NCBI GenBank assembly: GCA_021776335.1
Contig: JAJFGB010000004.1
Location: 124,001-188,000 of the forward strand
Reading direction: 5' to 3'
DNA from: Hyphococcus sp.
GTDB taxonomy: Bacteria; Pseudomonadota; Alphaproteobacteria; Caulobacterales; Parvularculaceae
Length of the DNA stretch: 64,000 nt
In this document: in pieces, positions 12,284 to 60,102 of the stretch
How the letters are laid out: the number at the start of each line of letters is the position of its first letter
How positions within the stretch are numbered: the stretch's first letter is position 1
The notes under the pieces: model-generated
The model's database searches: none
What the model was told of the DNA's origin: nothing
What the model saw: the letters and a program-made list of their open reading frames with translations, nothing else
Translations under genes and position numbers: made by a program

Positions 12284-13615
12284 TTATCCGGCCATAACGA
12301 AACGTGCCGCGAAAAACCCGTCCATTCCACCGGCGGTCCCAAGCATTGAGGGCAACGTCCGTAAATCACCGTCCCGTGTGATCGCTTCTGAAAGGCCGCC
12401 GATTTCGTCGGCCGTCACCGCACGCCGCGAAAGCGCAGGGTGGCGTGCAAGGGCTTCCCGCGCCTGATTTTCACCTTCTGCTCGCTGCAGCGAACAGACG
12501 CAATAAACAAACACGCCGCCTGGTTTTAACATCGCCACGGCGTGATCGATCATTTTTGCCTGCAATTCAGCGAGGGCGACAACGTCGGTCTCGGATTTAG
12601 ACCATGGGATATCGGGATGACGGCGCACAGTGCCGGTCGCGGTGCAAGGCGCGTCGAGAAGAACCGCGTCAGCTTTTTCAGACGGGGTCCAGCGCAAAAC
12701 ATCTTCCGCAATGGTTTGTGCAGTGAGGCCGGTGCGCTGGAGGTTTTCGGTGAGCCGCAGCAATCGCGTCTCTGATTTATCAATGGCTGTCACCACGCCG
12801 CCACGCGCGGCAAGTTGTAGCGATTTACCGCCGGGCGCGGCGCATAAATCAATGACGTGCTTTCCATCAATATCTTCAAATAGCTTAACCGGCAGGCTGG
12901 CGGCCGCGTCCTGCACCCACCAGGCCCCTTCGTTGAAACCATCCAGCGCCGTGACGTCACTCACGCGGCTCAGGCGGAGCGATCCCGTCGGCAATGTTTC
13001 CGCATTGAGAAGGTCGCGCCATTTCGCGCTGTCTTCAGGATTCTTCAGCGTCAAATCAAGCGGCGGCTCCAAGCGATGGGCTTCTGCAATGGCGCGGGTT
13101 TTTTGCGGGCCGTAATTGCGTTCCCAGGCGCGCCAAAGCCAGGCGGGGGTGTCGGTGCGGGCGGGCAATTTGGCGAGCGCCGATGCGCCTCTGTCACTGA
13201 TTTTACGCGCCACCGCGTTGATGAGTTTGGCGTATCCCGCATTTTCGCGGCGTTCACTCGCAACGGAAACAGCTGTTGAAACCGCCGCATGGGGTGGGGT
13301 TTCCAAAAACAGGGTCTGCGCAGCCGCCAGGCGCAATATATCCATGACCCGCACAGCTTTTTTCGGCAGCGGGCGGTCGATGTAGGCGCCGATGATGTGA
13401 TCAAGTGACCCACGTCGCCGCAAGACGCTGGTCGCCAGGGCGCGTGCGAACCCGCGGTCTGGTCCTTTGAGTGCATCAAAGGACCGGCAGGCCCCAAGCG
13501 CCTCGTCAAGGGTTTGTCCGTCGCGGATGAGTTCAAGGATATCAAGCGCGGCGCGGCGCGCATCAAGGCCGTCCGGCGGACCGGCGGAGGCGGTTTTTTC
13601 TTGTGGATCAGTCAT
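12284..13615 (-). CDS. RsmB-type 16S rRNA (cytosine-C5) methyltransferase
   Basis: A 443-residue protein with two parts. An N-terminal NusB-like RNA-binding domain (about 20-150) begins RRAALDILELIRDGQTLDEAL. The C-terminal RsmB/NOP2 methyltransferase has motif I DLCAAPGGKSLQLA (SAM binding), VLLDAPCTATGTVRRHPDI (motif IV cysteine) and YCVCSLQRAEGENQ (motif VI catalytic cysteine). Family members make m5C967 in 16S rRNA; the exact target here is inferred. The ATG at 13615 follows a G-rich Shine-Dalgarno. It is divergent from the YbjN-like gene. Confidence 0.88.
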   Translation of the reverse strand: MTDPQEKTASAGPPDGLDARRAALDILELIRDGQTLDEALGACRSFDALKGPDRGFARALATSVLRRRGSLDHIIGAYIDRPLPKKAVRVMDILRLAAAQTLFLETPPHAAVSTAVSVASERRENAGYAKLINAVARKISDRGASALAKLPARTDTPAWLWRAWERNYGPQKTRAIAEAHRLEPPLDLTLKNPEDSAKWRDLLNAETLPTGSLRLSRVSDVTALDGFNEGAWWVQDAAASLPVKLFEDIDGKHVIDLCAAPGGKSLQLAARGGVVTAIDKSETRLLRLTENLQRTGLTAQTIAEDVLRWTPSEKADAVLLDAPCTATGTVRRHPDIPWSKSETDVVALAELQAKMIDHAVAMLKPGGVFVYCVCSLQRAEGENQAREALARHPALSRRAVTADEIGGLSEAITRDGDLRTLPSMLGTAGGMDGFFAARFVMAG

Positions 13616-13749
13616 AAGCCCCCGCGTAAACCACGGGGAGACGTGAATGTCACCAAAAACCGTCTTCTGGCGGCGCCGCTATTTTTGAGCTAGAGTGGCG
13701 GCGGGCGGAGATTGCTCATTTTGGGTATTGTTTGGGGAAGGCGAGGGTT

Positions 13750-14451
13750 ATGAAAAATACAATTGCAGTGATTTGCGCTGGTATCGCGGCGCTTTCGGGT
13801 GCGTCCGCTCAACAGGTCATTTCGAGCCCGAAGGTCATGATCGCGAATTTTGACCCAGCAACGCTGGGGCCTGTTCTCAGCGAGTTGGGCGTTGTCTGGC
13901 AGACTCAAAAGACAGAAAAAGGCCAAACATACATTGCTGCAAATGCTGGCGGCGTTATCAGTTTCATCCTTGCCCCAACTGCCTGCCGCGTGAACGGCGC
14001 GACGGACTGTGTCGGGCTTAACATGTTGGCGGTCTTCGACGGCAACCCCAATCCACAAACCGTTAGAGCGTTTAACCACCGCTATGCATTTGCCAGCGCG
14101 GGCATTGATCCGTCCGGATCGGCCTATATCAGCCGGTATGAGATTTCAGATTATGGCGTCGCACGCGGCAACGTCGCGACATCCATTCAGGTTTTTGTCA
14201 ATCAGGCAGTGTTGTTTGGATCCGAGTTGGAAACAGCGCGGCGCACCGTGAGCCTTGAGGGTTTCGCGGATGATCTTGCGGCGAAAGAAATGAACCGTCA
14301 GGCGCTCGTCAAGATGACCGGCGTTGAGATCCATGCGGCCAATCCCATTGACCGGCATCAGTATGGTCTTGAGGAAGGCGCCCTTGCGGTACGTCAGTAC
14401 ATTCGCGACAAATCGGCGCCGCGCAACAAGATCGATAATATCACGGAATGA
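13750..14451 (+). CDS. secreted YbjN-like protein of unknown function
   Basis: A 233-residue protein with a signal peptide ending near GASAQ (residues 17-21). The ATG at 13750 is preferred over one 18 bases earlier because GAGGG precedes it and the signal peptide starts there. The middle part, with GQTYIAANAGGVISFIL, LNMLAVFDG, and VRAFNHRYAFASAGID followed by an ISRYEISDYG strand, fits the YbjN/type-III-chaperone-like fold that reads as a small alpha/beta domain. No catalytic motif is visible. It lies alone between divergent and convergent neighbours. Confidence 0.55.
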   Translation: MKNTIAVICAGIAALSGASAQQVISSPKVMIANFDPATLGPVLSELGVVWQTQKTEKGQTYIAANAGGVISFILAPTACRVNGATDCVGLNMLAVFDGNPNPQTVRAFNHRYAFASAGIDPSGSAYISRYEISDYGVARGNVATSIQVFVNQAVLFGSELETARRTVSLEGFADDLAAKEMNRQALVKMTGVEIHAANPIDRHQYGLEEGALAVRQYIRDKSAPRNKIDNITE

Positions 14452-14626
14452 ATTGGGCGGGTATTTGCCGTTCGGTTTAGCGACATTGTCGCCAGATGAT
14501 TTCGTTGCAGGCCGGAAAAATGGCGGAGTACGTGGAAATGCTTCCGAGTCAATTGTCGACGGCAATGGCCGCGCCGTCAGTTCCATTGAGTTTTAACTAG
14601 TGTTTTTCGCGTCTGTACGCGCCTCT

Positions 14627-16801
14627 TTAGTCTGTGCCTGCCAGCCGCCGCGCGATCGAATGCAGAATTTTCCTGGCGTAGCTTCCGACGAGCCTAATTT
14701 GCGATTTTACGGAATAGGCGATGCCGAAAAGCAGCCACCCAAATACGAATAAACCTGAATAGTGCAAAGTCTTCAGCATCGTATTTTGGTATTTCATATC
14801 GATACGTGTGAGACCCTTGTCTACCGAAAATTTGAAGAAGCATGAATGGTCGTTGCGATATTCCTGACCATTCACGCGTACTCGCCACATATTGTCGTCA
14901 TGCATTGAGTAAACTAAATCACCAGAACGTTCGCTCTCAATGGTAAAGGACTGCTTATTGGCAGTATACTTTTGTACGGTAAGCCGCAGGCTATTGCCGC
15001 ACATATATGTTTCTTCGGCTGTCTGCTTGTCTCTGGCGCATTCCAGATTTGCATCGTCATTCAGCCAACGAAATACTGGCCGCGTTACGCCAATCCAATC
15101 AAGAAGTTCGGAAGTTTCCGTTGTGTCTTTGCGAGCTTCGTCGACTTTTGCCTTCAGGCAACGAGGCATGGCGCCGGTCTCAAAGCCCGCGACGAGGTGA
15201 CCGTCTTTTATGGGTAACGGGACATCTTTTTGATGCGCCGGCAATTGATTGGGAAATTTCGTATGCCCTAAGGAATTATTCTGGCGGAAAATATGAAACT
15301 GGAGATTGTGAAACTCATAGTTATTTTTCTCGGCCACAGAAATCACTCTGTTGACGCGATGGGACAATTGAATGTCGGGCCTGCTCAGCGCAATTGTTAG
15401 TGCGTGCACGTAAAAGAGCTCAAGCACGATTAGGCTCAAAATAACATACATTCGCGCCTGTGTTGGAATACACAAAAATATACCCGCCGCCAGCGCGGCG
15501 GTCGCCAAGGCGAGCGGCCACTGCCCGATAAGGATCATTGCGATTGCGGCGCACGATGTGACAAGAGATATTTTTTTGAGGCCAATATGAGAGCCGCTGA
15601 ATGTCGATGTCGATAGCGCCAGCGCGCCGAGAAACAACAATATTACTTTCAGCGGTCCCAGCGAAAAATTGTAATACCGAAAATCAATGAGCTTCCTTGC
15701 GCCATCGGGAAGCCAAAGAATAACGCCAGGATAAATAGCATAGAGAAAAAGTGGAACGGCAGCGCCGAACAGCAATAACTGTCTACGGTTTCGAACGTCC
15801 AGTGAAGATACCAGATAGATGAAAAGAACAAGAAATCCCACGCCAAAATAACCACCAATGTCTCTGGCGATGTAAAACTGCTCATCTCCCTTTCCGACTG
15901 TCAGCGGGTTCAATGCTGAAATTGTCATGCTTTTGGCGTCAAGATTGGTTTGATAATTCTTGATACGTGTTTCAAGCCCGCTTTGTCCCTGCTCAGTATT
16001 GCTTGAGGACAAATACCCGCCTGTCGTTCGCCCTCCGTAAAAATTATCGTCTTCATAGAGTTTGAAATTGCCATGAACGGTAAGGACAAAAAGGGAGGCC
16101 AGCAGGCCAATGGGAATCGCGCGTTTTAAAAACGCGATTTTTCCAAGCAACCCAGCGCCCAAAATCAGTAAGGGAATTTCCATCATGATGAAGCCGATAA
16201 TTTTTGCTCCCATGAGCAAACTGACGGCGCTTGCGGCAAGAAAGCTGACGTTTAGCCAGCTTGGGCTCCTGTAAGCTCTGAGTATGAAATATGTCGTCCA
16301 TAAGCCAAAAAAAACGATATCAAACGGCCAGCTCTGGGTGATCAGTGGGAACGAAAGCAAAATGATGAGAAAGCACAAAGACGATGCTAGGTCGCCTAGT
16401 TTAAGTTCGCGTCCGATCAATAGGCAGGCGCAAAGTAGCAGCAATGTTTCTACTAATCTTGATGCGGAGTAAATGATCGCATACGGGATGGCTACATGGA
16501 GAATGGAAAGAAGCTTGGCGATTATTGCATCTATAGAAAACACATAGTGCATGTGAAAGCCGGGCTGGACTTGTTGACCTGCATAAAGATATGGATTCCA
16601 GAATGCGGGCTCGCCATGCTTTATTTCATGATTGGCGATGTAGTAAACAATATCGTATTCCATCAAAGCGTCACCGCCGAGGCGAACGACAAAATAGACC
16701 GCTAAGCTATAGACAATGCACGCCGAAATCGCGGCGGCGATTCCCACATTATCCTGATTGTTTAGCTTGAGGCCTCTAAGGAATTTTATTCCGGTCGTCA
16801 T
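14627..16801 (-). CDS. YfhO-like polytopic membrane glycosyltransferase
   Basis: A 724-residue protein with about a dozen membrane segments in its first two thirds, a large extracytoplasmic domain (about 470-680), and one last membrane helix (about 690-710). The first loop reads EYDIVYYIANHEIKHGEPAFWNPY; the GEPAFWNPYLYAG pattern is typical of YfhO and related GT-C enzymes. The C-terminal MHDDNMWRVRVNGQEY matches the usual W-x-V-x-V-D/N-G strand motif before the last helix. YfhO of Firmicutes transfers sugars from undecaprenyl phosphate outside the membrane. It is visibly AT-richer than its neighbours and faces the glycan genes, so it is the likely final transferase. The exact acceptor is unknown. 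Confidence 0.62.
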   Translation of the reverse strand: MTTGIKFLRGLKLNNQDNVGIAAAISACIVYSLAVYFVVRLGGDALMEYDIVYYIANHEIKHGEPAFWNPYLYAGQQVQPGFHMHYVFSIDAIIAKLLSILHVAIPYAIIYSASRLVETLLLLCACLLIGRELKLGDLASSLCFLIILLSFPLITQSWPFDIVFFGLWTTYFILRAYRSPSWLNVSFLAASAVSLLMGAKIIGFIMMEIPLLILGAGLLGKIAFLKRAIPIGLLASLFVLTVHGNFKLYEDDNFYGGRTTGGYLSSSNTEQGQSGLETRIKNYQTNLDAKSMTISALNPLTVGKGDEQFYIARDIGGYFGVGFLVLFIYLVSSLDVRNRRQLLLFGAAVPLFLYAIYPGVILWLPDGARKLIDFRYYNFSLGPLKVILLFLGALALSTSTFSGSHIGLKKISLVTSCAAIAMILIGQWPLALATAALAAGIFLCIPTQARMYVILSLIVLELFYVHALTIALSRPDIQLSHRVNRVISVAEKNNYEFHNLQFHIFRQNNSLGHTKFPNQLPAHQKDVPLPIKDGHLVAGFETGAMPRCLKAKVDEARKDTTETSELLDWIGVTRPVFRWLNDDANLECARDKQTAEETYMCGNSLRLTVQKYTANKQSFTIESERSGDLVYSMHDDNMWRVRVNGQEYRNDHSCFFKFSVDKGLTRIDMKYQNTMLKTLHYSGLFVFGWLLFGIAYSVKSQIRLVGSYARKILHSIARRLAGTD

Positions 16802-17172
16802 ACGTAATCACAAATTTAAAGCCGGCGGCGCGGGTATTTTCGAACAAGCGAGCATGATAGGCTCGTTTCGTGACGGGTGGCCAGCTGTTACGTTTGTCCG
16901 TCGTAAACGAGGGGCAAAGATGTTCGGGGCGGCGGCATTTGCAGATATTTACTCGGACGGGGTTTTTGATTGCGCCGCAAATCGTTAAGGCCTGATGCGG
17001 GTTTCACGATATAGCGCAGATCGCCCGGGCTGTGATTCAGTCAACCAATGACTTGGCGTGCGGTTTTGGGTATCACCCTTATCGGCTGTGCTTACAAGCG
17101 GCTAAGTTTTTGATGCGCTCGGGTGCGTCCAGCCTTTGAGGATGTCGCCGGAAAATATGAAAGTGACGATGC
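16802..17172. other. intergenic region between divergent glycan genes
   Basis: These 371 bases separate the minus-strand YfhO-like gene from the plus-strand glycan genes and should hold promoters for both. I see only a small hairpin (CGAGC 16849-16853 with GCTCG 16861-16865) and a near-palindrome TGTGATTCAGTCAA (17031-17044), which does not match a FixK box. I find no convincing gene. Confidence 0.6.
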
Positions 17173-17553
17173 ATGTTTGCCTACAATATATCTTTGGCGA
17201 TCTTTGTTATCAGCCTTGGCTCGTTGGCCATATCACAGACGATAGCTAAGTGGCGATTTATGAAACTTAATCCTGATGAGGCCGGCGCTGCGGACAAAGT
17301 GGAGTTTATCACTCATGCGGCTTCGGATAGCTGGCTTTGGTTAGCCGGCGTTCTTGTGATCGTCAGCGCGGTTTCATGGTATACGGCGCTCAGTCGTCTT
17401 CCATTATCTCTTATGTTGCCGGTCGCCGCGATAATTGCACCGACCGGCGCTGTTCTTGCCTATCTATTTCTAAAGGAGCCGCTTAGCGGCGGGCAGGTGG
17501 GCGCGATTTCACTCATATTCATTGGCGTTGTTTGGCTTGGGTTCCAGCAATGA
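17173..17553 (+). CDS. half-size EamA-type membrane transporter (putative lipid-sugar flippase subunit)
   Basis: A 126-residue protein with four hydrophobic segments and the DMT/EamA end pattern LPLSLMLPVAAIIAPTGAVLAYLFLKEPLSGGQVGAISLIFIGV. It is half the usual ten-helix EamA length, like EmrE-type and ArnE/ArnF proteins; ArnEF flip undecaprenyl-phosphate-aminoarabinose. The loop between helices 1 and 2 is longer than usual (about 28-54). Its stop overlaps the ATG of the methyltransferase gene, so translation is coupled. In this context a flippase role for a lipid-linked sugar is a reasonable inference, not a demonstrated one. Confidence 0.68.
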   Translation: MFAYNISLAIFVISLGSLAISQTIAKWRFMKLNPDEAGAADKVEFITHAASDSWLWLAGVLVIVSAVSWYTALSRLPLSLMLPVAAIIAPTGAVLAYLFLKEPLSGGQVGAISLIFIGVVWLGFQQ

Positions 17554-18455
17554 CGAATAGGCCGGATACAGGTGAGTTGCAGGTCCGGCTGAAGGCTTTC
17601 ATCACATCCCTTGACAGGGATCGGCTAGTTGTCGCGGCGTCAGCGGCAGACGGCGGCGCACCGGATGAATATGCAAAACAGATTGACACCTATCTCGGTG
17701 AGGCGGCGGTCGCCCTGGATTTGGTAGGCCCAACGTTGAGCCGCGAACCGCGTCTCCTTGAAGTCGGCTGCGGCATCGGTGTACTGACGGCTTTTCTAAA
17801 AGCTGAGGGATTCGATATCATCGGTATTGAGCCGGGCGCCGCCGGCGGTTTCGGATTCATGCCGTCAATGCATGCCGCCATCGCCGAGCAGCTTCCCGCC
17901 GATGAGCGCCCGACAATCTTGCCCATACGGGCGGAGGCCCTGAATCTCGAAAGACATGGCGCTTTTGATGTCGTTTTTTCAGCTAACGTGATCGAGCACA
18001 TCATGGCGCTGGAAGAGGCTATGGCGGCCATGAGCAGTGTGTTAACCCCCAATGGAATGATGAGGCATCTTTGCCCAAATTATCATTTCCCTTTTGAGCC
18101 GCATCTTGGCATTCCCCTGATGCCTTGCGCACCCAAATTGACCCGCTTTGTTTTGCCGGCGGTGATAAAGCGCAACCAGCGGATATGGGATACGGTGAAC
18201 TTTGTCACCGCCTCGCGCCTGGGTAGACTGGCCCGGCAAAATGGCCTCAAAATGCGGATGGAAAGCGGTGTGATGGCCGGTTTTTTTGCTCGACTGCGTC
18301 GGGATCCCATATTCGCTGAGCGTCATAGTGGTTTCATCAAAAACATCGCGGCCACACCGCTTTTGGGTAAATTGATCGAGGGGACAATGCGCATTTTGCC
18401 TTCTGCCCTGGCAACGCCGATGATTGCTGATTTATCCCATCGTAAACTGCCATAA
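17550..18455 (+). CDS. class I SAM-dependent methyltransferase
   Basis: A 301-residue cytoplasmic protein with SAM-binding motif I LLEVGCGIGVLTAFL (from residue 69) and the acidic end of strand 2 in IIGIEPG. DVVFSANVIEHI fits motif II/post-I of ubiquinone/sugar-type methyltransferases. The C-terminal half (about 190-300) is helical and not a standard part of the fold. The ATG overlaps the stop of the EamA-like gene (ATGA). The setting suggests a sugar or lipid-sugar substrate, but methylation of another molecule is possible. Confidence 0.78.
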   Translation: MTNRPDTGELQVRLKAFITSLDRDRLVVAASAADGGAPDEYAKQIDTYLGEAAVALDLVGPTLSREPRLLEVGCGIGVLTAFLKAEGFDIIGIEPGAAGGFGFMPSMHAAIAEQLPADERPTILPIRAEALNLERHGAFDVVFSANVIEHIMALEEAMAAMSSVLTPNGMMRHLCPNYHFPFEPHLGIPLMPCAPKLTRFVLPAVIKRNQRIWDTVNFVTASRLGRLARQNGLKMRMESGVMAGFFARLRRDPIFAERHSGFIKNIAATPLLGKLIEGTMRILPSALATPMIADLSHRKLP

Positions 18456-18588
18456 TTGGCTATAACCTCATCGAAGCGGTTCATGTGAAAGTGGGCTTGT
18501 CTTTTCATGAGACAACAAGATATCTGATGCGGCTTACGACCACCTGGAATGCAACGGCTGCGGTGTCAAAAGGGGCTAAGAAAGTTTG

Positions 18589-19548
18589 ATGTCGGTAAAA
18601 TCGACCCATAGTTTGGACAACGTCATTGTTACAGGCGGCCTCGGCTTCATCGGCAAGCATTTTGTTCGCCGTTGTCTGGGGCTCGGCTGCGTCGTTAGAA
18701 ATATCGACAAGGTGAGTTATGCCGCCGATCTGATGACGAAGGCGGAATTCGAAAACCACCCGAATTATCGTCTGATGCAGGCCGACATCGCCGATATTGA
18801 TTATTTGCCTGAATCCGATGTGATTGTGAATTTTGCGGCTGAGAGCCATGTAGACAATGCTATCACCTCGAACCGAAAATTTTGCGAGACCAATTTTCTT
18901 GGCGTGCAGAATTTATTGGAATTGGTGCGCTGTAAGCAGCAATTGGAGCGCCCTTTGTTTGTGCAGATTTCTACGGATGAGGTTTATGGCGATATTTATG
19001 TCGGTCAGCATTCGGAGAGTGATATTCTCGTCCCATCCAACCCCTATTCGGCGACCAAAGCCGCTGCGGACATGTTGGTGAAAAGTTGGGGGCGAACATA
19101 CGGGATTGAGTGGAATATACTGCGACCGACAAATAATTACGGAGAACATCAGTATCCAGAAAAACTAATTCCGAAAAGCCTTTGGCGAATGAAGCGCGGC
19201 CAGCTGGCGCTGCTGCACGGCGATGGCAGCTATGTTCGTTCCTGGCTGCATGCAGAAGATACGGTCGACGCTATTCTGGCCGTTATTGAAAATGGTGAGC
19301 GCAACAGTATCTATAATGCCGGCGGCGCAACCGAACTGGAAAATATTGAGGTGTTGCGCGCGATCGCTGGCCATCTTGGCGTTCCTGAAAATGAGGCGTG
19401 GCAGACAACGGAAGACCGGCTTGGGCAGGATGTTCGTTACAGTCTTGATGACGGCCGATTGCAAGCGCTTGGGTGGAAGCCAGCCCGTCAATTTCATGAT
19501 GAATTGCCTGTCATCATCGACAGCTTCGATTTCAAGCGTTTTGCGTAG
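18589..19548 (+). CDS. NAD-dependent sugar-nucleotide 4,6-dehydratase, RfbB-like
   Basis: A 319-residue extended short-chain dehydrogenase. The N-terminal GGLGFIG (16-22) binds NAD, T129-D130-E131 matches the catalytic TDE of dTDP-glucose 4,6-dehydratases, and Y153-x3-K157 is the redox dyad. RPTNNYGEHQYPEKLIP is the substrate loop seen in RfbB. It should turn an NDP-hexose into an NDP-4-keto-6-deoxyhexose. No RfbA, RfbC or RfbD gene is nearby, so the product probably goes to the following aminotransferase. A TTG directly precedes the ATG; the ATG with AAGAAAG in front is preferred. Confidence 0.85.
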   Translation: MSVKSTHSLDNVIVTGGLGFIGKHFVRRCLGLGCVVRNIDKVSYAADLMTKAEFENHPNYRLMQADIADIDYLPESDVIVNFAAESHVDNAITSNRKFCETNFLGVQNLLELVRCKQQLERPLFVQISTDEVYGDIYVGQHSESDILVPSNPYSATKAAADMLVKSWGRTYGIEWNILRPTNNYGEHQYPEKLIPKSLWRMKRGQLALLHGDGSYVRSWLHAEDTVDAILAVIENGERNSIYNAGGATELENIEVLRAIAGHLGVPENEAWQTTEDRLGQDVRYSLDDGRLQALGWKPARQFHDELPVIIDSFDFKRFA

Positions 19549-19578
19549 TTGAATTTCAGTGAAAGGAAGCGGCGCGAG

Positions 19579-20739
19579 ATGAAGGTCGACTTTTATCGCC
19601 ATGGCCTGACGGCGGCTGACGCCAGCGCCGTTGCATCGGTGCTCGATAGCCCGTTCCTCACAACCGGCTCGGTGAGCCGGCAAGTCGAGACGCAGTTATG
19701 CGACTATTTCGGGACGCCCCATGCATTACTGACTTCCAGCTGGACCAATGGCGCGCTCGCGACCTTGTTGGCGATGGGCGTTGGCCCAGGGGACGAAGTA
19801 ATTGTTCCCGCAATGACCTTCATTGCAAGCGCCAATATCGTTGAACTGCTTGGTGCAAAAACGGTGCTCGTCGATGTGGATCCCGGAACATTGCTCATGA
19901 CGCCGGAGATTGCTGCTGCGGCAGTAAGTTCACACACGAAAGCGGTCATTCCTGTCCATCTTTACGGACAGATGGTGGATATGGCCGCTTTGCGCCAAAA
20001 CCTTGATGAGGCAGCCGCGCCGAACCAAAAAATTTATATTCTGGAGGATTGCGCCCATTGCTTTGAAGGGCGTTTCGATGGTTGTCGCCCCGGGACATAT
20101 TCGGATGCGGCCAGCTTTTCTTTTTACGCCACCAAAAATGTAACCTGCGGCGAGGGCGGCGCTGTTATCTTTCGAGAGGCCGGGCTTTACGAGCGGGCGC
20201 TTGAAACTCGAATGCACGGGATGACCGCTTCTGCCGTCGACCGTTTTAAGGGGGGCCGGTATAACCATTGGGATATGACCCGGTTGGGCGTTAAGGCAAA
20301 TTTGCCGGATCTACTGGCCGCTTTGCTGCCATCACAAATAGAAACCATAGATGGGCGCTTGCCAGAACGCCAAGCACTCAGCGAGCGTTATCGGGAACAG
20401 CTTTCTGATACGCCCATTCGCTTGCCTGGCAGGAGCGTCAATAGCCTTGACGCATGTCATCTGTTTGCCATCGGTGTTGCCGAAGGCTGTCGTGACCGGG
20501 CCATTTTTCTACTCAATGACGCCGGCATATCCGTCACGGTCAATTATCGTGCGTTACCGGAATTGCGTTATTATGGGGACCGTTATCCAGAAGCGGCGGA
20601 GCGCTGTCCGGCTGCCATGGCATGGGGGCGACAGACTATCAGCCTTCCCCTTTATCCCGGACTGCCGCGAGAAGCCCAAGATTTTGTCATCTCGGTGTTG
20701 AAGGAAAAGATTGTCCCGCTAATGAGTAAGGAGCGGTAA
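19579..20739 (+). CDS. DegT/DnrJ/EryC1/StrS family sugar aminotransferase
   Basis: A 386-residue PLP enzyme. D157 in LEDCAHCFEG contacts the pyridine nitrogen and K186 in SFYATKNVTCGEGGAV is the Schiff-base lysine. The N-terminal region with SSWTNGALATLLAMGVGPGDEVIVPAMTF is typical of the family. It should transaminate a keto sugar nucleotide, most simply the 4-keto (or isomerised 3-keto) product of the RfbB-like enzyme. An in-frame TTG exists 30 bases upstream, but ATG at 19579 with AAGGAAG in front is better supported. The gene follows the dehydratase closely. Confidence 0.88.
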   Translation: MKVDFYRHGLTAADASAVASVLDSPFLTTGSVSRQVETQLCDYFGTPHALLTSSWTNGALATLLAMGVGPGDEVIVPAMTFIASANIVELLGAKTVLVDVDPGTLLMTPEIAAAAVSSHTKAVIPVHLYGQMVDMAALRQNLDEAAAPNQKIYILEDCAHCFEGRFDGCRPGTYSDAASFSFYATKNVTCGEGGAVIFREAGLYERALETRMHGMTASAVDRFKGGRYNHWDMTRLGVKANLPDLLAALLPSQIETIDGRLPERQALSERYREQLSDTPIRLPGRSVNSLDACHLFAIGVAEGCRDRAIFLLNDAGISVTVNYRALPELRYYGDRYPEAAERCPAAMAWGRQTISLPLYPGLPREAQDFVISVLKEKIVPLMSKER

Positions 20740-20806
20740 CTGTCGGGTGATTGTGCCCACTAAAAAATACCAGGTCACGGCCCGCGACAAAAATCGAGAC
20801 AGAATT

Positions 20807-21664
20807 ATGGCGACAGGAACAATCCGATCTTACGGGGTTAAGGAACAGGCCCCCTCTGGGGACGAAATTTCACAAGCAGTAGAGAGCCTGCGCCTCGTCG
20901 GGTACGCCGTCATCGATAGCGGTTATTCCCCCGCGTCAAGAAGTGAGATCGCAGACGCATTTTCGCGGGCATATAAAATTCAGCTCGAATTGCACGGGGG
21001 AGGCGAGGCGCTCGCGCAAATTGACGAACATAATACAATCCGGGCCCCGCTTGCATATGAAGACGCGTTTGTTGACCTCGCGTGCAACGCCAACATTCTA
21101 AAACTCGCCAAAATGCTGTTTGGCGGTTCACATATGACGGGGACCTATGTTGTCAATCAGCAAAACGGCGTCATCAACCCGCGAAAGGGAAACGCTTATG
21201 GTCAATCCGCGTTTCATCGCGACCTTCCCTATCAGCATTTCGTGACATCACGCCCGATCGCGTTAAGTGCGCTTTATTGTGTTGATCCGTTTACCGCTTC
21301 CAATGGCGCGACTTTGGTCGTGCCTGGCTCGCATAAGGAAGAAAAATTCCCATCGGCGGAAACGGCAAACAAGATCGCGACACCGATCGAAGCGCCGGCA
21401 GGGTCTTTTTTGGTTCTCGACAGTATGATCTATCATGCGGGCGGTACGAACAATACCGAGCGGGACCGGCGCGCGGTGAACACTGTCTATAGTTTGCCAC
21501 TGATCCGGCAGCAGATAGAACTTGCCGGTGTGGTTGGAGAGGGGCGCAGCCTTAGCGAGGATGCGGTGCATTTGCTTGGGCTGAATTATCCGTCAGTTGG
21601 CAATATTGACGAATACTATCATAATAAACGCGCCAAGATCGCCAGAGCCAACAACAAAAATTAG
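20807..21664 (+). CDS. phytanoyl-CoA dioxygenase (PhyH) family protein
   Basis: A 285-residue non-haem iron/2-oxoglutarate oxygenase. The metal triad is readable as H137-x-D139 (FHRDLPYQH) and H210 (DSMIYHAGGTNN), with R221 or R222 in place to bind 2-oxoglutarate. The family hydroxylates diverse small molecules, including sugars and lipids. A GTG 60 bases upstream keeps the frame open, but the ATG at 20807 fits better with the start of the conserved region; its ribosome binding site is weak. Its location suggests hydroxylation of a sugar or its acyl group, which is inference. Confidence 0.82.
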   Translation: MATGTIRSYGVKEQAPSGDEISQAVESLRLVGYAVIDSGYSPASRSEIADAFSRAYKIQLELHGGGEALAQIDEHNTIRAPLAYEDAFVDLACNANILKLAKMLFGGSHMTGTYVVNQQNGVINPRKGNAYGQSAFHRDLPYQHFVTSRPIALSALYCVDPFTASNGATLVVPGSHKEEKFPSAETANKIATPIEAPAGSFLVLDSMIYHAGGTNNTERDRRAVNTVYSLPLIRQQIELAGVVGEGRSLSEDAVHLLGLNYPSVGNIDEYYHNKRAKIARANNKN

Positions 21665-21718
21665 CACCCAACCGCGCCTCACTGTTGGCGTGCGCAAAGA
21701 AACCAAAGCCAACAATTT

Positions 21719-22441
21719 ATGTCCAGGACAGTCGTCATTTTGCAATCGAACTATATCCCATGGAAAGGATATCTCGATTTACTGAACGCCGCGGACATGT
21801 TTGTTATCTATGATGAGGTGCAGTTTACAAGACGTGACTGGCGCAACCGTAACAAAATTGTTCTGGACGGCGAAACTAAATGGCTGACAATTCCCGTCGA
21901 CAGCAAGGGAAGCTATCTTCAACCAATCAACGACATCAAAGTTTCTGACCCGCGCTGGGCTGAAAAGCATTGGGCGTCTATCAAGCATGCTTATGGCAAG
22001 GCGCCATTTTTTAAAGAATACCGAGATCATCTCGATTCCATTTATGAGGCGGCCGAAGATTTTACACTCCTTACGGAGGTAAATGAGCTGTTTTTGCGCG
22101 AACTGGCGTCTTTGCTCGACATCAAAACAGAAATTTCACGCAGCGACAGAGTGGAGCGCCAGGCCACGGCCCCCGCCGAGCGTCTGATAGAAATTTGTCT
22201 TGCCCATGGGGCGACTACTTATCTTTCCGGTCCTGCAGCTAAAAGCTATATTGACCCTGAGCTTTTTGAACGCGCCGGTCTGCGTCTTGCCTATGCTGAC
22301 TATTCAAACTATCCGGTCTATGATCAACGCAGCGATGCGTTCGAGCACGGGGTAAGCATCATAGACTTGCTAATGCGCGTCGGTCCTGAGGCTGCGAGCC
22401 ATTTAAAATCGGCAAAAAGTTCGGCGGGGCTTATGGAATGA
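21719..22441 (+). CDS. WbqC family protein
   Basis: A 240-residue cytoplasmic protein with the WbqC pattern: VILQSNYIPWKGYLDLLNAADMFVIYDEVQFTRRDWRNRN at the start, then WLTIPV, and YLSGPAAKSYIDPELF later. WbqC proteins occur in O-antigen and capsule clusters; a role in attaching amino acids or acyl groups to amino sugars has been suggested, but the reaction is not settled. It sits between the dioxygenase and the GT2 fusion in the same direction. The ATG at 21719 opens the conserved region directly. Confidence 0.85.
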   Translation: MSRTVVILQSNYIPWKGYLDLLNAADMFVIYDEVQFTRRDWRNRNKIVLDGETKWLTIPVDSKGSYLQPINDIKVSDPRWAEKHWASIKHAYGKAPFFKEYRDHLDSIYEAAEDFTLLTEVNELFLRELASLLDIKTEISRSDRVERQATAPAERLIEICLAHGATTYLSGPAAKSYIDPELFERAGLRLAYADYSNYPVYDQRSDAFEHGVSIIDLLMRVGPEAASHLKSAKSSAGLME

Positions 22442-22557
22442 TATTGTCCCTTCGATCGATATAAAGTCCCGCCTTGTTCTGGGTTTGATTTTCACCTGTA
22501 ACTCGCACAACATGATTTCTGGTTTTTCTGTTACATTCATCAGCAACGAAAACATCT

Positions 22558-24162
22558 ATGCGCATTTCCCTCGTCACGCCCCTTTTTAAGAGCGAACCCT
22601 ATGTGGAAGAGCTTTATCAACGGGCTGTCGACAGTATCACCGTACTTACCCACGACTATGAAATAGTTTTTGTCAATGATGGCTCGCCGGACAAAAGTCT
22701 CGAAGTCGCAAGGCGACTGGCTGCCCGTGACCCGAGGGTCACCGTCATCGATTTATCACGCAACTTCGGACAACATCCGGCGCTGGTAACCGGGCTACGG
22801 GCCGCAACCGGCGATTTTGTTTTTATCTGTGACAGCGATCTTGAAGAAGATCCAAAATGGATTATTCCGTTCTACGAAACGATGCAGGAAAAAGAATGCG
22901 ATGTCGTTTATGGCGTTCAGACAGCGAAGAAAGGGGGCTTGCTCTATCGGGCGGCCCGCCGCTTGTTTTATGGTTCGCTGGTTCTTCTCTCAGGCATTGA
23001 TTTTCCAGGAAATATTACAACAGCGCGGCTGATGAGCCGACGTTATCTTGACGCCATGCTGGAGTATCAAGAGCGCGAATTGTTTGCCGCAGGAATCTGG
23101 CACATGGTTGGATTCGATCAAGCGCCCTACCAAGTCGCCAAGCAGGGTACCAGTGCAACAACCTACCGCATTGGCGCTTTGGTCAGCAATTTTGTCAACG
23201 CCATAACTGCGTTTTCGACGCGCCCGCTTCAGGTCATCTCTATCGCCGGAATAGTGCTCTCCGCAACAGCGATGGTTTTCATTGGCAGCCTGCTCTACCG
23301 AAAATTGATTTTAAACGCAGCGTTAGAAGGCTGGACCTCAGTGATGGCGTCGATAATGTTGATTGGCGGTATCTTGCTGTTTTTCAACGGGATCATCGCG
23401 ATTTACATCGCCAAAATATTCGTTGAAGTGAAGCAAAGGCCGGTTGCGAGTGTTCGAAGCGTCATTGGCGGTTCAACCGACAGTAAATACGAAGCGTCAC
23501 GGCCACAAAGGGCTCAACAACCGCACCCGCCTGATCCACAATCTTACAACAGTATCGTTCAGCACTATGAGCGCTGCCTTGCTGAGCATGGCGATGGTTC
23601 GCGCGCTGTCGACTGGAACAGTGAGGAAAGCGCTGCTGTCAGATATGATGTGATGCTTGATCTTCTTTCTGCTAAGTCGGGACCTGTTTCATTGCTCGAT
23701 TTTGGTTGTGGTCTGGGGGAATTGAAACACCACATTGAGCGTCGAGGGCTTTCCCACGTCCAATATGAAGGGCTCGATATATCCCAGGCCTATGCTGACG
23801 CCGCACGCGAAAGATTGCCTGGGACAACCATACACTGCGTTGATGTGCTAGATGGCGCTGCTCATCTTCCTGACTACGACTATATTGTTATGAACGGAAT
23901 TTTCACGCGCCGTGAAAATCTTTCTCATCGTGAAATGCTGTTATATATGGAGCGGCTGACAAAGCGGCTCTTTGAGAATACACGGCGGGGCCTCGCCTTC
24001 AATGTGATGTCGACATGCGCGGACTGGAAGAGCGATGAACTTTTTCATCCCAGCTTTGACGAACTGGCTGAGATGATTTGTGGGTCGCTGTCGCCGCAGA
24101 TGACGTTGCGGAATGACTATGGGCTTTACGAGACGACTTGCTATGTTTATCGAAAATCCTAG
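22558..24162 (+). CDS. fusion: polyprenyl-phosphate GT2 glycosyltransferase + class I methyltransferase
   Basis: A 534-residue two-domain protein. Residues 1-225 form a GT2 domain of the DPMS/CsbB/ArnC type with VFVNDGSPDKSLE and the D92-S-D94 metal motif. Two membrane helices (about 225-247 and 260-286) follow, as in polyprenyl-phosphate glycosyltransferases. A proline/glutamine-rich linker (about 305-330) leads to a class I methyltransferase with motif I DFGCGLGE (381-388) and GLDIS (405-409). The reading frame is continuous across the junction, so this is a real fusion or at least an intact one. It should place a sugar on undecaprenyl phosphate; the methyltransferase presumably acts on the same sugar. 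Confidence 0.82.
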   Translation: MRISLVTPLFKSEPYVEELYQRAVDSITVLTHDYEIVFVNDGSPDKSLEVARRLAARDPRVTVIDLSRNFGQHPALVTGLRAATGDFVFICDSDLEEDPKWIIPFYETMQEKECDVVYGVQTAKKGGLLYRAARRLFYGSLVLLSGIDFPGNITTARLMSRRYLDAMLEYQERELFAAGIWHMVGFDQAPYQVAKQGTSATTYRIGALVSNFVNAITAFSTRPLQVISIAGIVLSATAMVFIGSLLYRKLILNAALEGWTSVMASIMLIGGILLFFNGIIAIYIAKIFVEVKQRPVASVRSVIGGSTDSKYEASRPQRAQQPHPPDPQSYNSIVQHYERCLAEHGDGSRAVDWNSEESAAVRYDVMLDLLSAKSGPVSLLDFGCGLGELKHHIERRGLSHVQYEGLDISQAYADAARERLPGTTIHCVDVLDGAAHLPDYDYIVMNGIFTRRENLSHREMLLYMERLTKRLFENTRRGLAFNVMSTCADWKSDELFHPSFDELAEMICGSLSPQMTLRNDYGLYETTCYVYRKS

Positions 24163-24196
24163 TATTAACTTTTAGTCCAACCAGATAAGTGGATAA

Positions 24197-24865
24197 GTGA
24201 CAAACAAGCCCATCATCATATTCGGCCTAGGCGAATTGGCCGAAGTTGCAAAATTCTACTTTGATAATGATACGACGCGGAATGTGGCCGGGTTTTCAGT
24301 AGACGGCGCACATCTAAAGGAAGACCGTTTTCATAAACTTCCGGTTGTTGCTTTCGAAGAGGTAGACACCGCGTTTTCATGTGAAGAGTATGATCTGTTT
24401 GTCGCCATCGGTTATTCAAAGGTCAACGGCCTGCGCCAGGAGAAATGTTTGGCGGCCCTCGACAAGGGCTATCATTTGGCAAGCTATGTCTCTTCGAAGG
24501 CGACGGTGTTCGATGATTTGAGCCATGGCGATAATTGTTTCATCCTTGAGGACAATACCATCCAGCCCTTTGCGAAGGTCGGCAGAGGCGTAACACTCTG
24601 GAGCGGTAATCATATTGGGCACCACGCAAGCATCGGTGATTTTGCGTTTATTAGCTCTCACGTAGTGATATCCGGCGGCGTATCTGTGGGCGAGCGCAGC
24701 TTTATGGGTGTGAATTCAACAACCAATGATCACATAGCCATCGGCGCGCGCTGTGTCATTGGATCAGGCGCCATTGTTACGCGCAATGTCGATGATGAGG
24801 GCGTCGTGCTGGCCGAACCCGGAAAGCTTTCGAAAGTTCCAAGTTCAAGACTAAGGAATCTATGA
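24197..24865 (+). CDS. NeuD/PglD-type sugar O- or N-acyltransferase
   Basis: A 222-residue protein with an N-terminal Rossmann-like domain (IIIFGLGELAEVAKFYF, about 5-21) and a C-terminal left-handed beta-helix of hexapeptide repeats (about 105-205, for example VGRGVTLWSGNHIGHHASIGDFAFISSH). The histidines in GNHIGHHASIG are where the catalytic base sits in PglD and NeuD. Relatives acetylate UDP-4-amino sugars or sialic acid. The start is GTG at 24197. Together with the aminotransferase it suggests an N-acylated amino sugar. The stop overlaps the ATG of the next gene. Confidence 0.82.
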   Translation: MTNKPIIIFGLGELAEVAKFYFDNDTTRNVAGFSVDGAHLKEDRFHKLPVVAFEEVDTAFSCEEYDLFVAIGYSKVNGLRQEKCLAALDKGYHLASYVSSKATVFDDLSHGDNCFILEDNTIQPFAKVGRGVTLWSGNHIGHHASIGDFAFISSHVVISGGVSVGERSFMGVNSTTNDHIAIGARCVIGSGAIVTRNVDDEGVVLAEPGKLSKVPSSRLRNL

Positions 24866-25782
24866 CGTTAAAGGTAAAACGTCTCGGACGGATATTCGGC
24901 GCCGAAGACGGGCCGGACTGGATGTGCAGCCATGCTGCCTATGCCGCCCCGCTATTGATTGGTGCAGATCGTCTGAGGATTTATATCGTGGCAAGAGACC
25001 AGGATAATCGCGGCAGCGTTGGCTTTGTTGATGTGAGCGCGAGTGATCCAACGCGTTGCCTGGACGTATCGCAGCACCCTTGCCTTGAGCCCGGAGCGCT
25101 TGGCAGTTTTGATGACAGCGGCATCTCCATAGGGTCCGTCAATCGCATTGGCGATGAAATCTGGCTTTATTATATGGGTTGGAACAAAGCCGTGAATGTT
25201 CCGTTCCGTAATGCGATCGGTCTGGCCGTTTGCAGGGACAATAAGGGGGATCGGTTCGAGCGACCCCACAAAGGGCCTTTGCTGGATCGCAGTCGGTATG
25301 ATCCTTTTACTATCAGCTACCCTTTTGTTGCGCCGCCGGAGGAGAAGCGCGACGCCTGGCAAATGTTTTACGGTACAAATCGCGCTGGTGGAGACAATGA
25401 AGAAAATATGCAGCATATTCTGACCGATGCTGCTTCAGATGACGGCATTGATTGGCGACCGTCAGGACGCGAAGTTGTATCTCTGGCGCCTGGCGACTAT
25501 GGCCTCTCGCGGCCCTGGCGTATCGACCTGGCGGGCCGGCGGCTTCTGTTTTACTCGATCCGCCGCAAAAAATACACGATCGGTGTTTCTGAATTTGATC
25601 AGGGCGAGGGCGAGTGGAACAGGATAACCGGCGATCTGCTGGGGCCTTCTGACGCGCCATGGGAAAATGAGGCCTCTTGTTATCCTGCAGTGATAAAGGT
25701 TGAAGACAGGGTACTGCTTTTTTACAATGGCAACGATTACGGTCGCACCGGCCTGGGGGTCGCGGAGCTGACGGACGGTTAA
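24862..25782 (+). CDS. five-bladed beta-propeller glycosidase-like protein
   Basis: A 306-residue protein with repeated beta-strand patterns such as DEIWLYYMGWNKA, AWQMFYGTNRAGG, RRLLFYSIRRKKY and DRVLLFYNGNDYGRTGLGVAEL. These are the aromatic-tipped blades of GH43/GH62/GH130-like five-bladed propellers. No clear catalytic acid set can be assigned, so an inactive or sugar-binding role is as likely as a glycoside phosphorylase or hydrolase. There is no signal peptide, so it acts in the cytoplasm. It is translationally coupled to the acyltransferase (ATGA overlap) and closes the island. Confidence 0.68.
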   Translation: MTLKVKRLGRIFGAEDGPDWMCSHAAYAAPLLIGADRLRIYIVARDQDNRGSVGFVDVSASDPTRCLDVSQHPCLEPGALGSFDDSGISIGSVNRIGDEIWLYYMGWNKAVNVPFRNAIGLAVCRDNKGDRFERPHKGPLLDRSRYDPFTISYPFVAPPEEKRDAWQMFYGTNRAGGDNEENMQHILTDAASDDGIDWRPSGREVVSLAPGDYGLSRPWRIDLAGRRLLFYSIRRKKYTIGVSEFDQGEGEWNRITGDLLGPSDAPWENEASCYPAVIKVEDRVLLFYNGNDYGRTGLGVAELTDG

Positions 25783-25926: not shown

Positions 25927-27099
25927 TCAGGCTTTGAGCGCCAGCGCCTTGCCGCCGCGGGTCATGACGGCGCCCATTCCCAAAACATATGCGAATAGCC
26001 AGACCAGTGCGCCGAGAAACGGGATTAGCCCGACAATCACCAACGCGCCGGCCGCCAGTGCTGACCAGGCAATACGTGCGCCGATCCCGGGGTCTCCGCG
26101 ACCACCTGCTATTGCGCGGCGTCCCTGCATGCCGATGAAGTAGACAAAGGCGGCGATCGCAAGGGGCGCTGCTGCGAGATAGATGACGCCGATCAGCATA
26201 GCCAGAGGGACACCCAAGACCGTTGCAAAAAGCAACGCAATAATAGCGGGGGCCGCCGCAACGATCAAAAAACCAACGCCCAGCGTAGACAATGGTTTTT
26301 CGCCAATCATCGCGGCAGCGCTGTTCATAAGGCTGGGAAGTGTGAGAGCAACTATTACAACAAGAAGGCTCATGCCAATCAGAAATGCGAGCGCGAACAC
26401 TGCTATAGTGGCTGCTGCGGCGATGCCCCATTTTTCCATGTCGGGCCGTGTTGGCGATTCAAGTTCGATGATCTCGCCGGTAATGACGGCGTCCGGCGAG
26501 ATGTCGATTTTTTCTGCGCGGTGACGCAAATCGCCGCCAATGCGTGTTTCCGGACCGATAACGATTTTATCGCCGACAAGATGAGCGTCGCCTTCGACGC
26601 TGGCGTTCAGGCGAAGGTCGCCGGCAGCGGCGCGCAGTTCACCGCCAACAGCTGCGTTTATATCGACATCACCACCGCTGAGGACTGCGGATCCGCCGAT
26701 GTTGAAGTCTGCCTGAACGTTCAGATCGCCGCCCGCGGCGACAAGGTCGTCTGTGACTGTGCCACTGATGAAATCGATATCGCCTCCTGCGGCAATAAGG
26801 TCATGAAAAGCGACATCGGTAATAACAATATCGCCGCCCGCCGCGATCATATGATCAGCCTGCGCCTCGTTGATCGTTACGTCCCCACCCACCGCGAAAA
26901 TATCGTCGCTCGACTTGGCGGTGACGTTCAAATTCCCGCCCGCGAAGAATGCCATGTCGGGAAATACATCATTCGCATCAACATGATCGCCTGTTCGGGT
27001 TTCAATCTGGGCCATGAGTGCGCCGGCGGCAAACAACAAAATAGCTGCTAGCACGATCATGAACAAAAGACGGTGTGTAAAACGATGACTGAGGGCCAT
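25927..27099 (-). CDS. membrane protein with bactofilin-like beta-repeat domain
   Basis: A 390-residue protein. A signal or anchor helix (about 12-32) is followed by a repeat domain (about 45-195) built on AAGGDI-type units roughly every 19 residues (IFAVGGDVTI, MIAAGGDIVI, LIAAGGDIDF, LVAAGGDLNV, VLSGGDVDI), which should fold as a beta-solenoid like polymer-forming bactofilins. From about residue 225 there are several membrane helices. The ATG at 27099 is chosen because GAGGAG precedes it; the frame stays open further up. A perfect FixK-type box lies 94 bases upstream. Role unknown, probably envelope organisation. Confidence 0.72.
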   Translation of the reverse strand: MALSHRFTHRLLFMIVLAAILLFAAGALMAQIETRTGDHVDANDVFPDMAFFAGGNLNVTAKSSDDIFAVGGDVTINEAQADHMIAAGGDIVITDVAFHDLIAAGGDIDFISGTVTDDLVAAGGDLNVQADFNIGGSAVLSGGDVDINAAVGGELRAAAGDLRLNASVEGDAHLVGDKIVIGPETRIGGDLRHRAEKIDISPDAVITGEIIELESPTRPDMEKWGIAAAATIAVFALAFLIGMSLLVVIVALTLPSLMNSAAAMIGEKPLSTLGVGFLIVAAAPAIIALLFATVLGVPLAMLIGVIYLAAAPLAIAAFVYFIGMQGRRAIAGGRGDPGIGARIAWSALAAGALVIVGLIPFLGALVWLFAYVLGMGAVMTRGGKALALKA

Positions 27100-27192
27100 G
27101 GGAACTCCTCTGATTTGGCGAGCGCATGCCGCGATATTGCGAAGACGCGCAAGCTTTGCTGGGCATCGTGCCATCAGCAAGCCTTTGCGCCT

Positions 27193-47321: not shown

Positions 47322-47342
47322 CGGCGGCTGAATAGGCTCCAC

Positions 47343-47445
47343 AAAAAAGGCCGCGGGACGAACCCGCGGCCAAGTCATAGGGAGGAAACGCCCAAAAATT
47401 GGGCAGCAGCGACAGGATCGCTGCGAGGGCGAGAATAAGCTCGCC
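47343..47445 (-). ncRNA. candidate trans-acting small RNA, suhB/MmgR-like
   Basis: On the minus strand four stem-loops follow each other: GGCGAG/CTCGCC (47440-47445 with 47428-47433), GCAGCGA/TCGCTGC (47418-47424 with 47406-47412), GCCCAA/TTGGGC (47399-47404 with 47390-47395), and GGCCGCGGG/CCCGCGGCC (47363-47371 with 47349-47357) followed by six T residues. Between the third and the last hairpin lies an unpaired GTTTCCTCCCTATGACTT stretch, whose CCTCCC can pair with ribosome binding sites. This layout recalls the alphaproteobacterial suhB/MmgR (alpha-r8) RNAs from memory. The exact 5' end is not known. Confidence 0.62.
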
Positions 47446-59724: not shown

Positions 59725-59899
59725 TAAAAACTTTCCCGATCCAGTCCCGCCGCCCGGCCGGGACCAATTGATAACGACATGTCTGACCTCACCGATAAGC
59801 CGGTGCAGGCGGTCAGGCCCTTTTCAGGTGTCGTTTCAAAGGAAAGTCATCAGGCTTTCCCGCCGACAGAGAACATTTCCCGGTCTCCGGACGAACGAC

Positions 59900-60070
59900 G
59901 CGATGACAGGTCTCCTGGCTTGCCGATCAGCGCTTCGGGCCGCCTTCCCAGGAAATAATTTCCCAGTGGCTTGATTGGCCTTCAGCTCCCGGCTGACAGT
60001 TGCGGGTACAGCCCCGGATTTTCACCGGGTTCCCTCTTTTTGGCCGTCTTCATGACGGCGCCATCTATGA
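59900..60070 (-). promoter_or_regulatory. cobalamin riboswitch
   Basis: On the minus strand the core GAGGGAACCCGGTGAAAATC followed by CCGGGGCTGTACCCGCAACTG (read in pieces) is the cobalamin class consensus, and GCCAGGAGACCTG (about 59907-59920) is the B12 box. A GGCGCC-GTC...GAC stem starts it near 60068. It should shut down btuB when cobalamin is plentiful. Confidence 0.93.
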
Positions 60071-60073
60071 TTG

Positions 60074-60102
60074 CGTATCTTGCAATCAGGGAGGTTTGTC
60101 AA
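60074..60102 (-). promoter_or_regulatory. promoter of the riboswitch-controlled btuB operon
   Basis: TTGACA (60097-60102 on the minus strand) and GATACG (60074-60079) are separated by 17 bases. The predicted start falls at the first base of the riboswitch. The -10 is only three of six. Confidence 0.5.

Follow-up and report, generated by a model that had tools for sequence, protein, structure and literature searches.

The 64,000-nucleotide window analysed here (Hyphococcus sp. assembly GCA_021776335.1, contig JAJFGB010000004.1, positions 124,001 to 188,000 of the forward strand) contains a ten-gene island, 14627 to 25782, that we read, with somewhat better than even confidence, as a three-component transmembrane glycosylation system, probably horizontally acquired, comprising the three parts and its own amino-sugar supply. 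The original prediction, made from the sequence alone, had proposed that the island links an N-acylated, hydroxylated and methylated amino sugar to undecaprenyl phosphate, flips it and transfers it outside. This is broadly the best reading and is partly supported; the larger finding is that the island represents a cassette that recurs in other genomes. The three-part logic is present in one block: a glycosyltransferase family 2 (GT2) enzyme like GtrB and ArnC, a four-helix EamA protein and a polytopic protein of 13 or 14 predicted helices stand together with a nucleotide-amino-sugar pathway. The open reading frames (ORFs) that were named all lie where they had been placed and are long and open, and Pfam and NCBIfam bear out the methyltransferase, RfbB-like, DegT, PhyH, WbqC, GT2 and NeuD identities.

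The candidate polyprenyl-phosphate glycosyltransferase (22558 to 24162, + strand) had been described as a GT2 enzyme with two C-terminal helices. The GT2 domain and the helices predicted after it account for residues ~1 to 310, but the description missed a fused class I S-adenosylmethionine (SAM) methyltransferase at residues ~345 to 534, where Methyltransf_12 of Pfam covers residues 380 to 452. The closest solved structures of the GT2 part are GtrB sll0501 (5ekp; residues 2 to 301, expectation value (E) 2e-40) and ArnC (9hwj; residues 2 to 307, E 9e-26), both polyprenyl-phosphate enzymes. In the DxD motif, all 71 aligned GT2 rows, the window included, have D94, and 70 of them have D92. Judged by its sequence, with these nearest relatives, the conserved motif and the helices, the protein is a candidate membrane-linked polyprenyl-phosphate glycosyltransferase of the GT-A type. 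GT2 and methyltransferase are two adjoining genes in plasmid loci L010 to L013 and L015; among the loci fetched, the fusion recurs only in L017 (Notoacmeibacter marinus).

The last gene of the island (24862 to 25782, +), left unnamed in the original prediction, encodes a member of a family related to the mannoside phosphorylases of glycoside hydrolase family 130 (GH130). A profile of five relatives matches these enzymes (best 9fj8, E 6e-9). Across 87 rows of GH130-like proteins, R45 is kept in 84 and D84 in 85, as are other polar residues; the window protein departs from the majority at D212 (E in 83 rows) and at E268 (D in 79). An alignment scan confirmed 354 GH130-like relatives in genome contigs, and loci were picked through this cassette marker, from the best 80 of the 354. 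DegT is present in 73 of 84 loci, NeuD in 71, GT2 in 70, WbqC in 61, the methyltransferase (MT) domain in 55, the 307-residue methyltransferase (MT307) in 47, PhyH in 32, RfbB in 31 and RfbA in 21. The role profiles were built from the same 84 loci, so borderline members such as MT307 may be other methyltransferases. On the same strand and within 5.5 kb of the GH130-like gene lie NeuD (68 loci), GT2 (56), WbqC (55), DegT (54), the MT domain (49) and PhyH (22). The order WbqC-GT2-MT-NeuD-GH130-like is found in 22 of the 84, counting role-labelled genes only, between which unlabelled ORFs may lie.

Plasmids carry the cassette as well. The GT2 protein matched 536 plasmid records by tblastn, in six of which a single place accounted for 80% or more of the query, and the seven records above 40% identity among the 65 with WbqC (H23 to H29) are the seven best GT2 records (H1 to H7). 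WbqC, GT2, methyltransferase, acetyltransferase and GH130-like genes are consecutive on plasmids of Peteryoungia, Azospirillum and Rhizobium Q54 (identified by Pfam in the first two). EamA follows the cassette in Peteryoungia and GtrA in Rhizobium Q54, and EamA lies upstream on the opposite strand in Azospirillum. By record title, the GH130-like relatives include Gamma-, Beta- and Deltaproteobacteria, Bacteroidetes, Planctomycetes and a cyanobacterium; the cassettes are not confined to Alphaproteobacteria, a point that the original prediction missed. The test of linkage in other genomes that it called for turned out positive for GT2, EamA and the sugar genes, but not for the 724-residue polytopic protein, of which the searches found no copy outside its own genome.

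The half-size EamA protein (17173 to 17553, +) has four hydrophobic stretches. Alone it falls below the Pfam cut-offs, but its counterparts back the assignment: that of plasmid locus L010 passes the Pfam cut-off (31.2 bits), and the window protein matches, with 108 bits, the one that occupies the corresponding position in Notoacmeibacter. From sequence and context, this four-helix protein, with GtrA in other loci, is the candidate small flippase of a three-component system. EamA is present in 25 and GtrA in 10 of the 84 loci, with no locus having both (P 0.023 for zero overlap by chance, kinship ignored), and reading on from the GH130-like gene, the first role-labelled gene is EamA in 12 loci and GtrA in six. 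In a quick cassette tree of the 60 rows having NeuD, GH130-like and WbqC, at least six switches between EamA and GtrA are required, and L012 (GtrA) and L033 (EamA) are sisters with support 99. Since GtrA stands where other loci have EamA, the flippase role of EamA is supported, and as alternatives the two fit a polyprenyl-monophosphate sugar. If this reading is right, related donor modules paired with either protein are a natural experiment in which flippase specificity is directly testable.

The window groups with L016 (Mesorhizobium albiziae) and L017 in a single clade (Shimodaira-Hasegawa-like approximate likelihood ratio test, 100). All three have the RfbB-like gene, PhyH and a protein related to the 307-residue methyltransferase; the gene order of L017 is that of the window. 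Identities were compared over the 44 rows with all six roles, including the window and leaving L017, with its fused MT domain, outside. The window DegT shares 66% identity with that of L016 but no more than 31% with any other row; for the MT domain the figures are 57% and at most 32%. The sugar-making part has therefore probably also changed in this subtype. The polytopic proteins of the three loci are all different: 724 residues in the window, a 553-residue singleton in L016, and in L017 a 655-residue protein whose gene diverges from EamA, placed as the 724-residue gene is, but which is of another family.

The 655-residue protein, shared by L017 and L124, aligns by hhalign (E 4e-20) to a family, A6, that recurs in seven loci. 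Two further polytopic families are found beside cassettes, one in four loci and one in seven. The latter, of ~540 residues (L023, L042, L054, L063, L079, L089 and L091, with fragments only in L042 and L079), has one member with a weak PMT_2 match (E 0.004, below cut-off), and one member of the four-locus family resembles the window protein in matching YfhO at its C terminus (22.4 bits, below cut-off). A Pfam scan (E 0.01) of 61 polytopic proteins, 60 of the 67 from the loci plus that of the window, named six PMT_2, three YfhO and one GT87, with single cases of AcrB, amino acid permease, MBOAT, FtsX, acyltransferase and others. Since some of these names are plainly other things, not every polytopic neighbour belongs to a cassette. 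The variety is the pattern expected of a donor module with changing acceptor-specific transferases, though part of it may be chance neighbours.

The candidate terminal transferase of the window is the 724-residue protein (14627 to 16801, - strand). It has 13 or 14 predicted helices depending on threshold, the N terminus inside, a first outside loop of 47 residues and a 212-residue outside stretch ahead of the last helix. Its inner ends are positive (K and R are 3 of 16 N-terminal and 6 of 28 C-terminal residues), and short loops show a modest bias in charge (0.14 inside versus 0.085 outside). Such helices, positive inner ends and outside loops of these lengths are as in YfhO-type proteins. The earlier label of YfhO-like holds for the C terminus, where PF09586 matches with 22.2 bits over profile positions 744 to 830 of 835 (87 positions); in a search of its own genome at E 10 the protein is the sole match (E 8.2e-5 for one genome). 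However, this score is below the curated cut-off of 28.5, short of membership in the YfhO family, and hmmscan against Pfam gave no match at E 0.1. Two Listeria C-terminal matches occur among plasmids at E 1, and a Listeria YfhO-family protein weakly matches residues 611 to 693 (E 0.01, plasmid search). The 16 cassette genomes gave three short, chance-like matches at E 10, and neither phmmer nor hmmsearch matched the protein to the recurrent polytopic families of the loci. Kinship with these families was considered from hhalign comparisons and rejected as too weak (E 0.002 with a probability of 13% to family A5, E 0.11 to A6). Against the Protein Data Bank (PDB), the A5 profile had no match and A6 had chance-like ones (acetylcholine receptors and one other). 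If the glycosylation reading is right, gene neighbourhood may reveal the terminal transferases of such systems where sequence search fails.

We infer the substrates, the carrier, the order of steps, flipping, transfer and the acceptor from the gene content, as follows. The RfbB-like nucleoside diphosphate (NDP)-hexose 4,6-dehydratase (18586 to 19548, +; Pfam GDP_Man_Dehyd, 176 bits) and the DegT-family aminotransferase (19549 to 20739, +; Pfam, 297 bits; closest solved structure ArnB 1mdo, E 6e-64) would produce an NDP-4-amino-4,6-dideoxyhexose. RmlA is encoded elsewhere in the genome (499 bits, over cut-off), so deoxythymidine diphosphate (dTDP)-glucose should be available. The WbqC-family protein (21719 to 22441, +; PF08889, 250.7 bits, cut-off 21.3) and the NeuD/PglD/VioB-family acyltransferase (24197 to 24865, +; TIGR03570, 171 bits, cut-off 160.8) would acylate the amine, WbqC, a proposed aminoacyl-aminosugar ligase, adding an amino acid by an amide bond and NeuD acylating it to an N-acyl-aminoacyl group. 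The PhyH-family hydroxylase (20747 to 21664, +; Pfam PhyH, 77 bits) would hydroxylate the sugar, and the fused MT domain and the SAM methyltransferase (17550 to 18455, +; Methyltransf_23, 56.9 bits; the listed ORF starts with TTG at 17532, with an ATG at 17550) would methylate it. The GT2 domain would then move the finished sugar onto undecaprenyl phosphate, the half-size EamA protein would flip the lipid-linked sugar, and the 724-residue protein would hand it to a periplasmic acceptor encoded outside the island.

The role proposed for WbqC draws on its predicted fold, which is the BshC fold over 227 of 240 residues; the BshC chain compared (4wbd) has 540. BshC, of bacillithiol synthesis, acts on an amino-sugar amine. 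WbqC had no match among PDB sequences, and blastn of a Vibrio wbqC against E. coli genomes found none. Stretches with 27 to 30% identity to WbqC are present in unannotated human-faeces phage records (MT836330.1, MT838042.1 and MT835991.1). WbqC was called functionally uncharacterised in 2017, in the accessible text of PMC5532660.

A number of results weigh against the glycosylation reading. The 724-residue protein matches itself alone in 100 relatives and in 398 genomes of the phylum, has no PDB sequence match at E 10, and gives a single-sequence structure model (mean predicted local distance difference test score 41.7) that is unusable for fold; it may be a very divergent Wzy or another membrane enzyme. 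The window EamA protein scores 21 bits with Pfam EamA (cut-off 28.2) and 25.2 with NIPA (cut-off 26.2). Neither EamA nor GtrA is present in 31 of the 64 loci with a strong GT2 match, 12 of the 31 being Bacteroidetes by record title; other flippases were not looked for. Selection of the loci through a gene of the cassette itself counts on the same side, as do the DegT, NeuD, RfbB and WbqC counts, which stand without a background rate from unrelated glycan loci. As a control, WbqC, NeuD or the GH130-like gene was found in none of seven loci around the genome's other GT2 genes, loci of only 3.3 to 3.9 kb. The RfbB-like protein reaches 301.4 bits with the dTDP-glucose 4,6-dehydratase equivalog TIGR01181 (cut-off 365.1), and DegT is below the cut-offs of the NCBIfam ArnB and PseC models. 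For WbqC, Pfam names only WbqC at E 0.1 and no BshC (PF10079), and plain Foldseek with the model gave no match at E 0.001. By hhalign, a WbqC alignment of 55 rows (the window and 54 of the 62 hits, leaving out plasmid records L010 to L014, the cut L042 and L062, and L078) was compared with seven BshC proteins (from seven of eight loci, the eighth carrying an in-frame stop); the best E was 0.13, elsewhere in the chain, and there was no sequence link.

Three other explanations were considered. In one, the 724-residue protein is an unrelated neighbour and the true terminal transferase is encoded elsewhere, the remainder working as proposed; its gene is on the opposite strand, guanine-cytosine content is lower around it (0.494 at 14001 to 16000 and 0.477 at 15001 to 17000, 2-kb steps), and the protein has no relative among the 67 polytopic ORFs of the cassette loci or in iterated searches of all locus ORFs. 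We consider this unlikely, since the gene's position and orientation beside EamA match those of the polytopic gene of L017 and L124, and since its product has the C-terminal YfhO match. A comparable, low probability attaches to a surface polysaccharide of the Wzx/Wzy type, in which the sugar would enter an undecaprenyl-diphosphate repeat unit and the EamA and 724-residue proteins would be bystanders, or the latter a divergent polymerase. The loci without EamA or GtrA, the absence of a Pfam name for the 724-residue protein, and an exopolysaccharide locus with a WbqC protein, DegT, GT2 and Wzx described in the accessible text of PMC5532660 are consistent with it. However, none of the ten island proteins is recognised by Pfam as a Wzx, a Wzy, an initiating transferase or a chain-length protein, the sole glycosyltransferase domain it finds is of the GtrB/ArnC kind, and the EamA/GtrA alternatives fit a monophosphate carrier. 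Highly unlikely is glycosylation of a protein such as flagellin by GT2 acting directly in the cytoplasm, as in the viosamine island of Pseudomonas syringae, for which an N-acylated, 2-O-methylated viosamine donor has been proposed (PMC3927599, accessible text), given that the closest solved relatives of GT2 load polyprenyl phosphate, EamA or GtrA is linked to the cassette and Pfam finds no flagellar protein among the ten.

Beyond the three-component reading of this island, a broader proposal is possible but rather doubtful: that WbqC, the GtrB-like GT2, the methyltransferase, NeuD and the GH130-like protein form a cross-phylum plug-in module, unnamed in the literature searched, that loads undecaprenyl phosphate with a single class of aminoacylated amino sugar in combination with unrelated flippases and terminal transferases, WbqC being the founder of a family of ligases with the BshC fold that couple an amino acid to the amine of a sugar. 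If true, such ligases would explain the aminoacyl residues on 4-amino-4,6-dideoxyglucose (Qui4N) of O antigens. If the three-component reading is right, a widespread modification of surface glycans could be recognised by the sequence of the cassette, and WbqC would have a testable function. We did not recognise the cassette as described in the literature searched, judging by titles and abstract openings, with most subscription journals outside the search.

The lipid A aminoarabinose system ArnC-ArnEF-ArnT places a 4-amino sugar on undecaprenyl phosphate and has a half-size EamA-like or small-multidrug-resistance-like flippase. The island resembles it in its ArnB-like DegT, ArnC-like GT2 and half-size EamA-type flippase, and in the 4-amino sugar that it would load onto undecaprenyl phosphate. 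It differs in having one EamA among its ten proteins rather than the ArnE and ArnF pair, a 4,6-dehydratase in place of the uridine diphosphate-glucuronate route, and WbqC, NeuD, PhyH and methyltransferases in addition. The best NCBIfam match of GT2 is PgfS of Streptococcus (NF047588), yet its 160.6 bits are far below the cut-off of 500. The O antigens of Shigella dysenteriae 7 and E. coli O121, which we take to correspond to each other from a cited title containing 'Shigella-like', are built of repeat units, unlike the proposed product of the island. WbqC has been reported from the S. dysenteriae 7 O-antigen cluster, and the E. coli O121 antigen is cited for N-acetylglycyl on Qui4N (accessible text of PMC5532660 and PMC3210612). 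With CsbB-GtcA-YfhO and other multi-component systems (PMC8035078, accessible text) the island has in common a membrane-linked GT-A enzyme, a small flippase and a large polytopic transferase, which in the island is a candidate. Such transferases show little conservation from one system to another, and the island protein has a YfhO-like C terminus. The sugars given in that text are glucose, galactose and N-acetylglucosamine. Compared with CsbB-GtcA-YfhO, the island adds amino-sugar, acyl, methyl and hydroxyl genes, the GT2-methyltransferase fusion and an EamA-type flippase. The pentofuranose system of Citrobacter youngae likewise has its own sugar supply, a dedicated flippase and a terminal transferase unlike earlier glycosyltransferase families, but its sugar derives from phosphoribosyl pyrophosphate (PRPP) and its flippase is of the multidrug and toxic compound extrusion type (PMC11127046, accessible text).

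Among 28 genomes of the genus, some incomplete, the GH130-like profile matches only the island's own genome, and among 100 relatives it matches six, its own included. The flanking genes (RsmB, 13732 to 14451, 25927 to 27180 and neighbours) keep their order in the close relative G017, at 76 to 84% identity, around a site (L117, 3752 to 6207) occupied by thymidine-phosphorylase-like and PRPP-synthetase-like genes, named by eye from their translations; two further genus genomes (L118 and L119) keep the flank in part only. Because the island is rare among relatives and its flanks are conserved around other genes in G017, it was probably acquired horizontally, and it may have taken the place of those two genes. 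The protein of the flanking gene at 25927 to 27180 (- strand) is matched in 9 of the 28 genus genomes, its own included, and has no Pfam match; its 417 residues, in which glycine-rich turns recur and hydrophobic stretches lie towards the C terminus, look bactofilin-like by eye only.

The nine + strand genes of the island follow one another in the same direction, either overlapping by 4 bases (the EamA stop with the methyltransferase ATG at 17550, and NeuD with the GH130-like gene at 24862) or separated by no more than ~130, and are therefore likely to form one operon. A divergent intergenic region of 371 bp (16802 to 17172) separates them from the polytopic gene, and no Rfam match was found at E 0.1 in 13600 to 17400, which covers it. 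Promoter-like sites number 17, versus 11.7 (standard deviation 3.8) in shuffled sequences, and terminator-like sites 33, mostly within genes, versus 15.2 (standard deviation 4.0); we draw no conclusion from either. Elsewhere in the window are a match to the suhB/mmgR small RNA family (47334 to 47411, - strand; 59.7 bits) and a cobalamin riboswitch (59888 to 60080, - strand; 118 bits).

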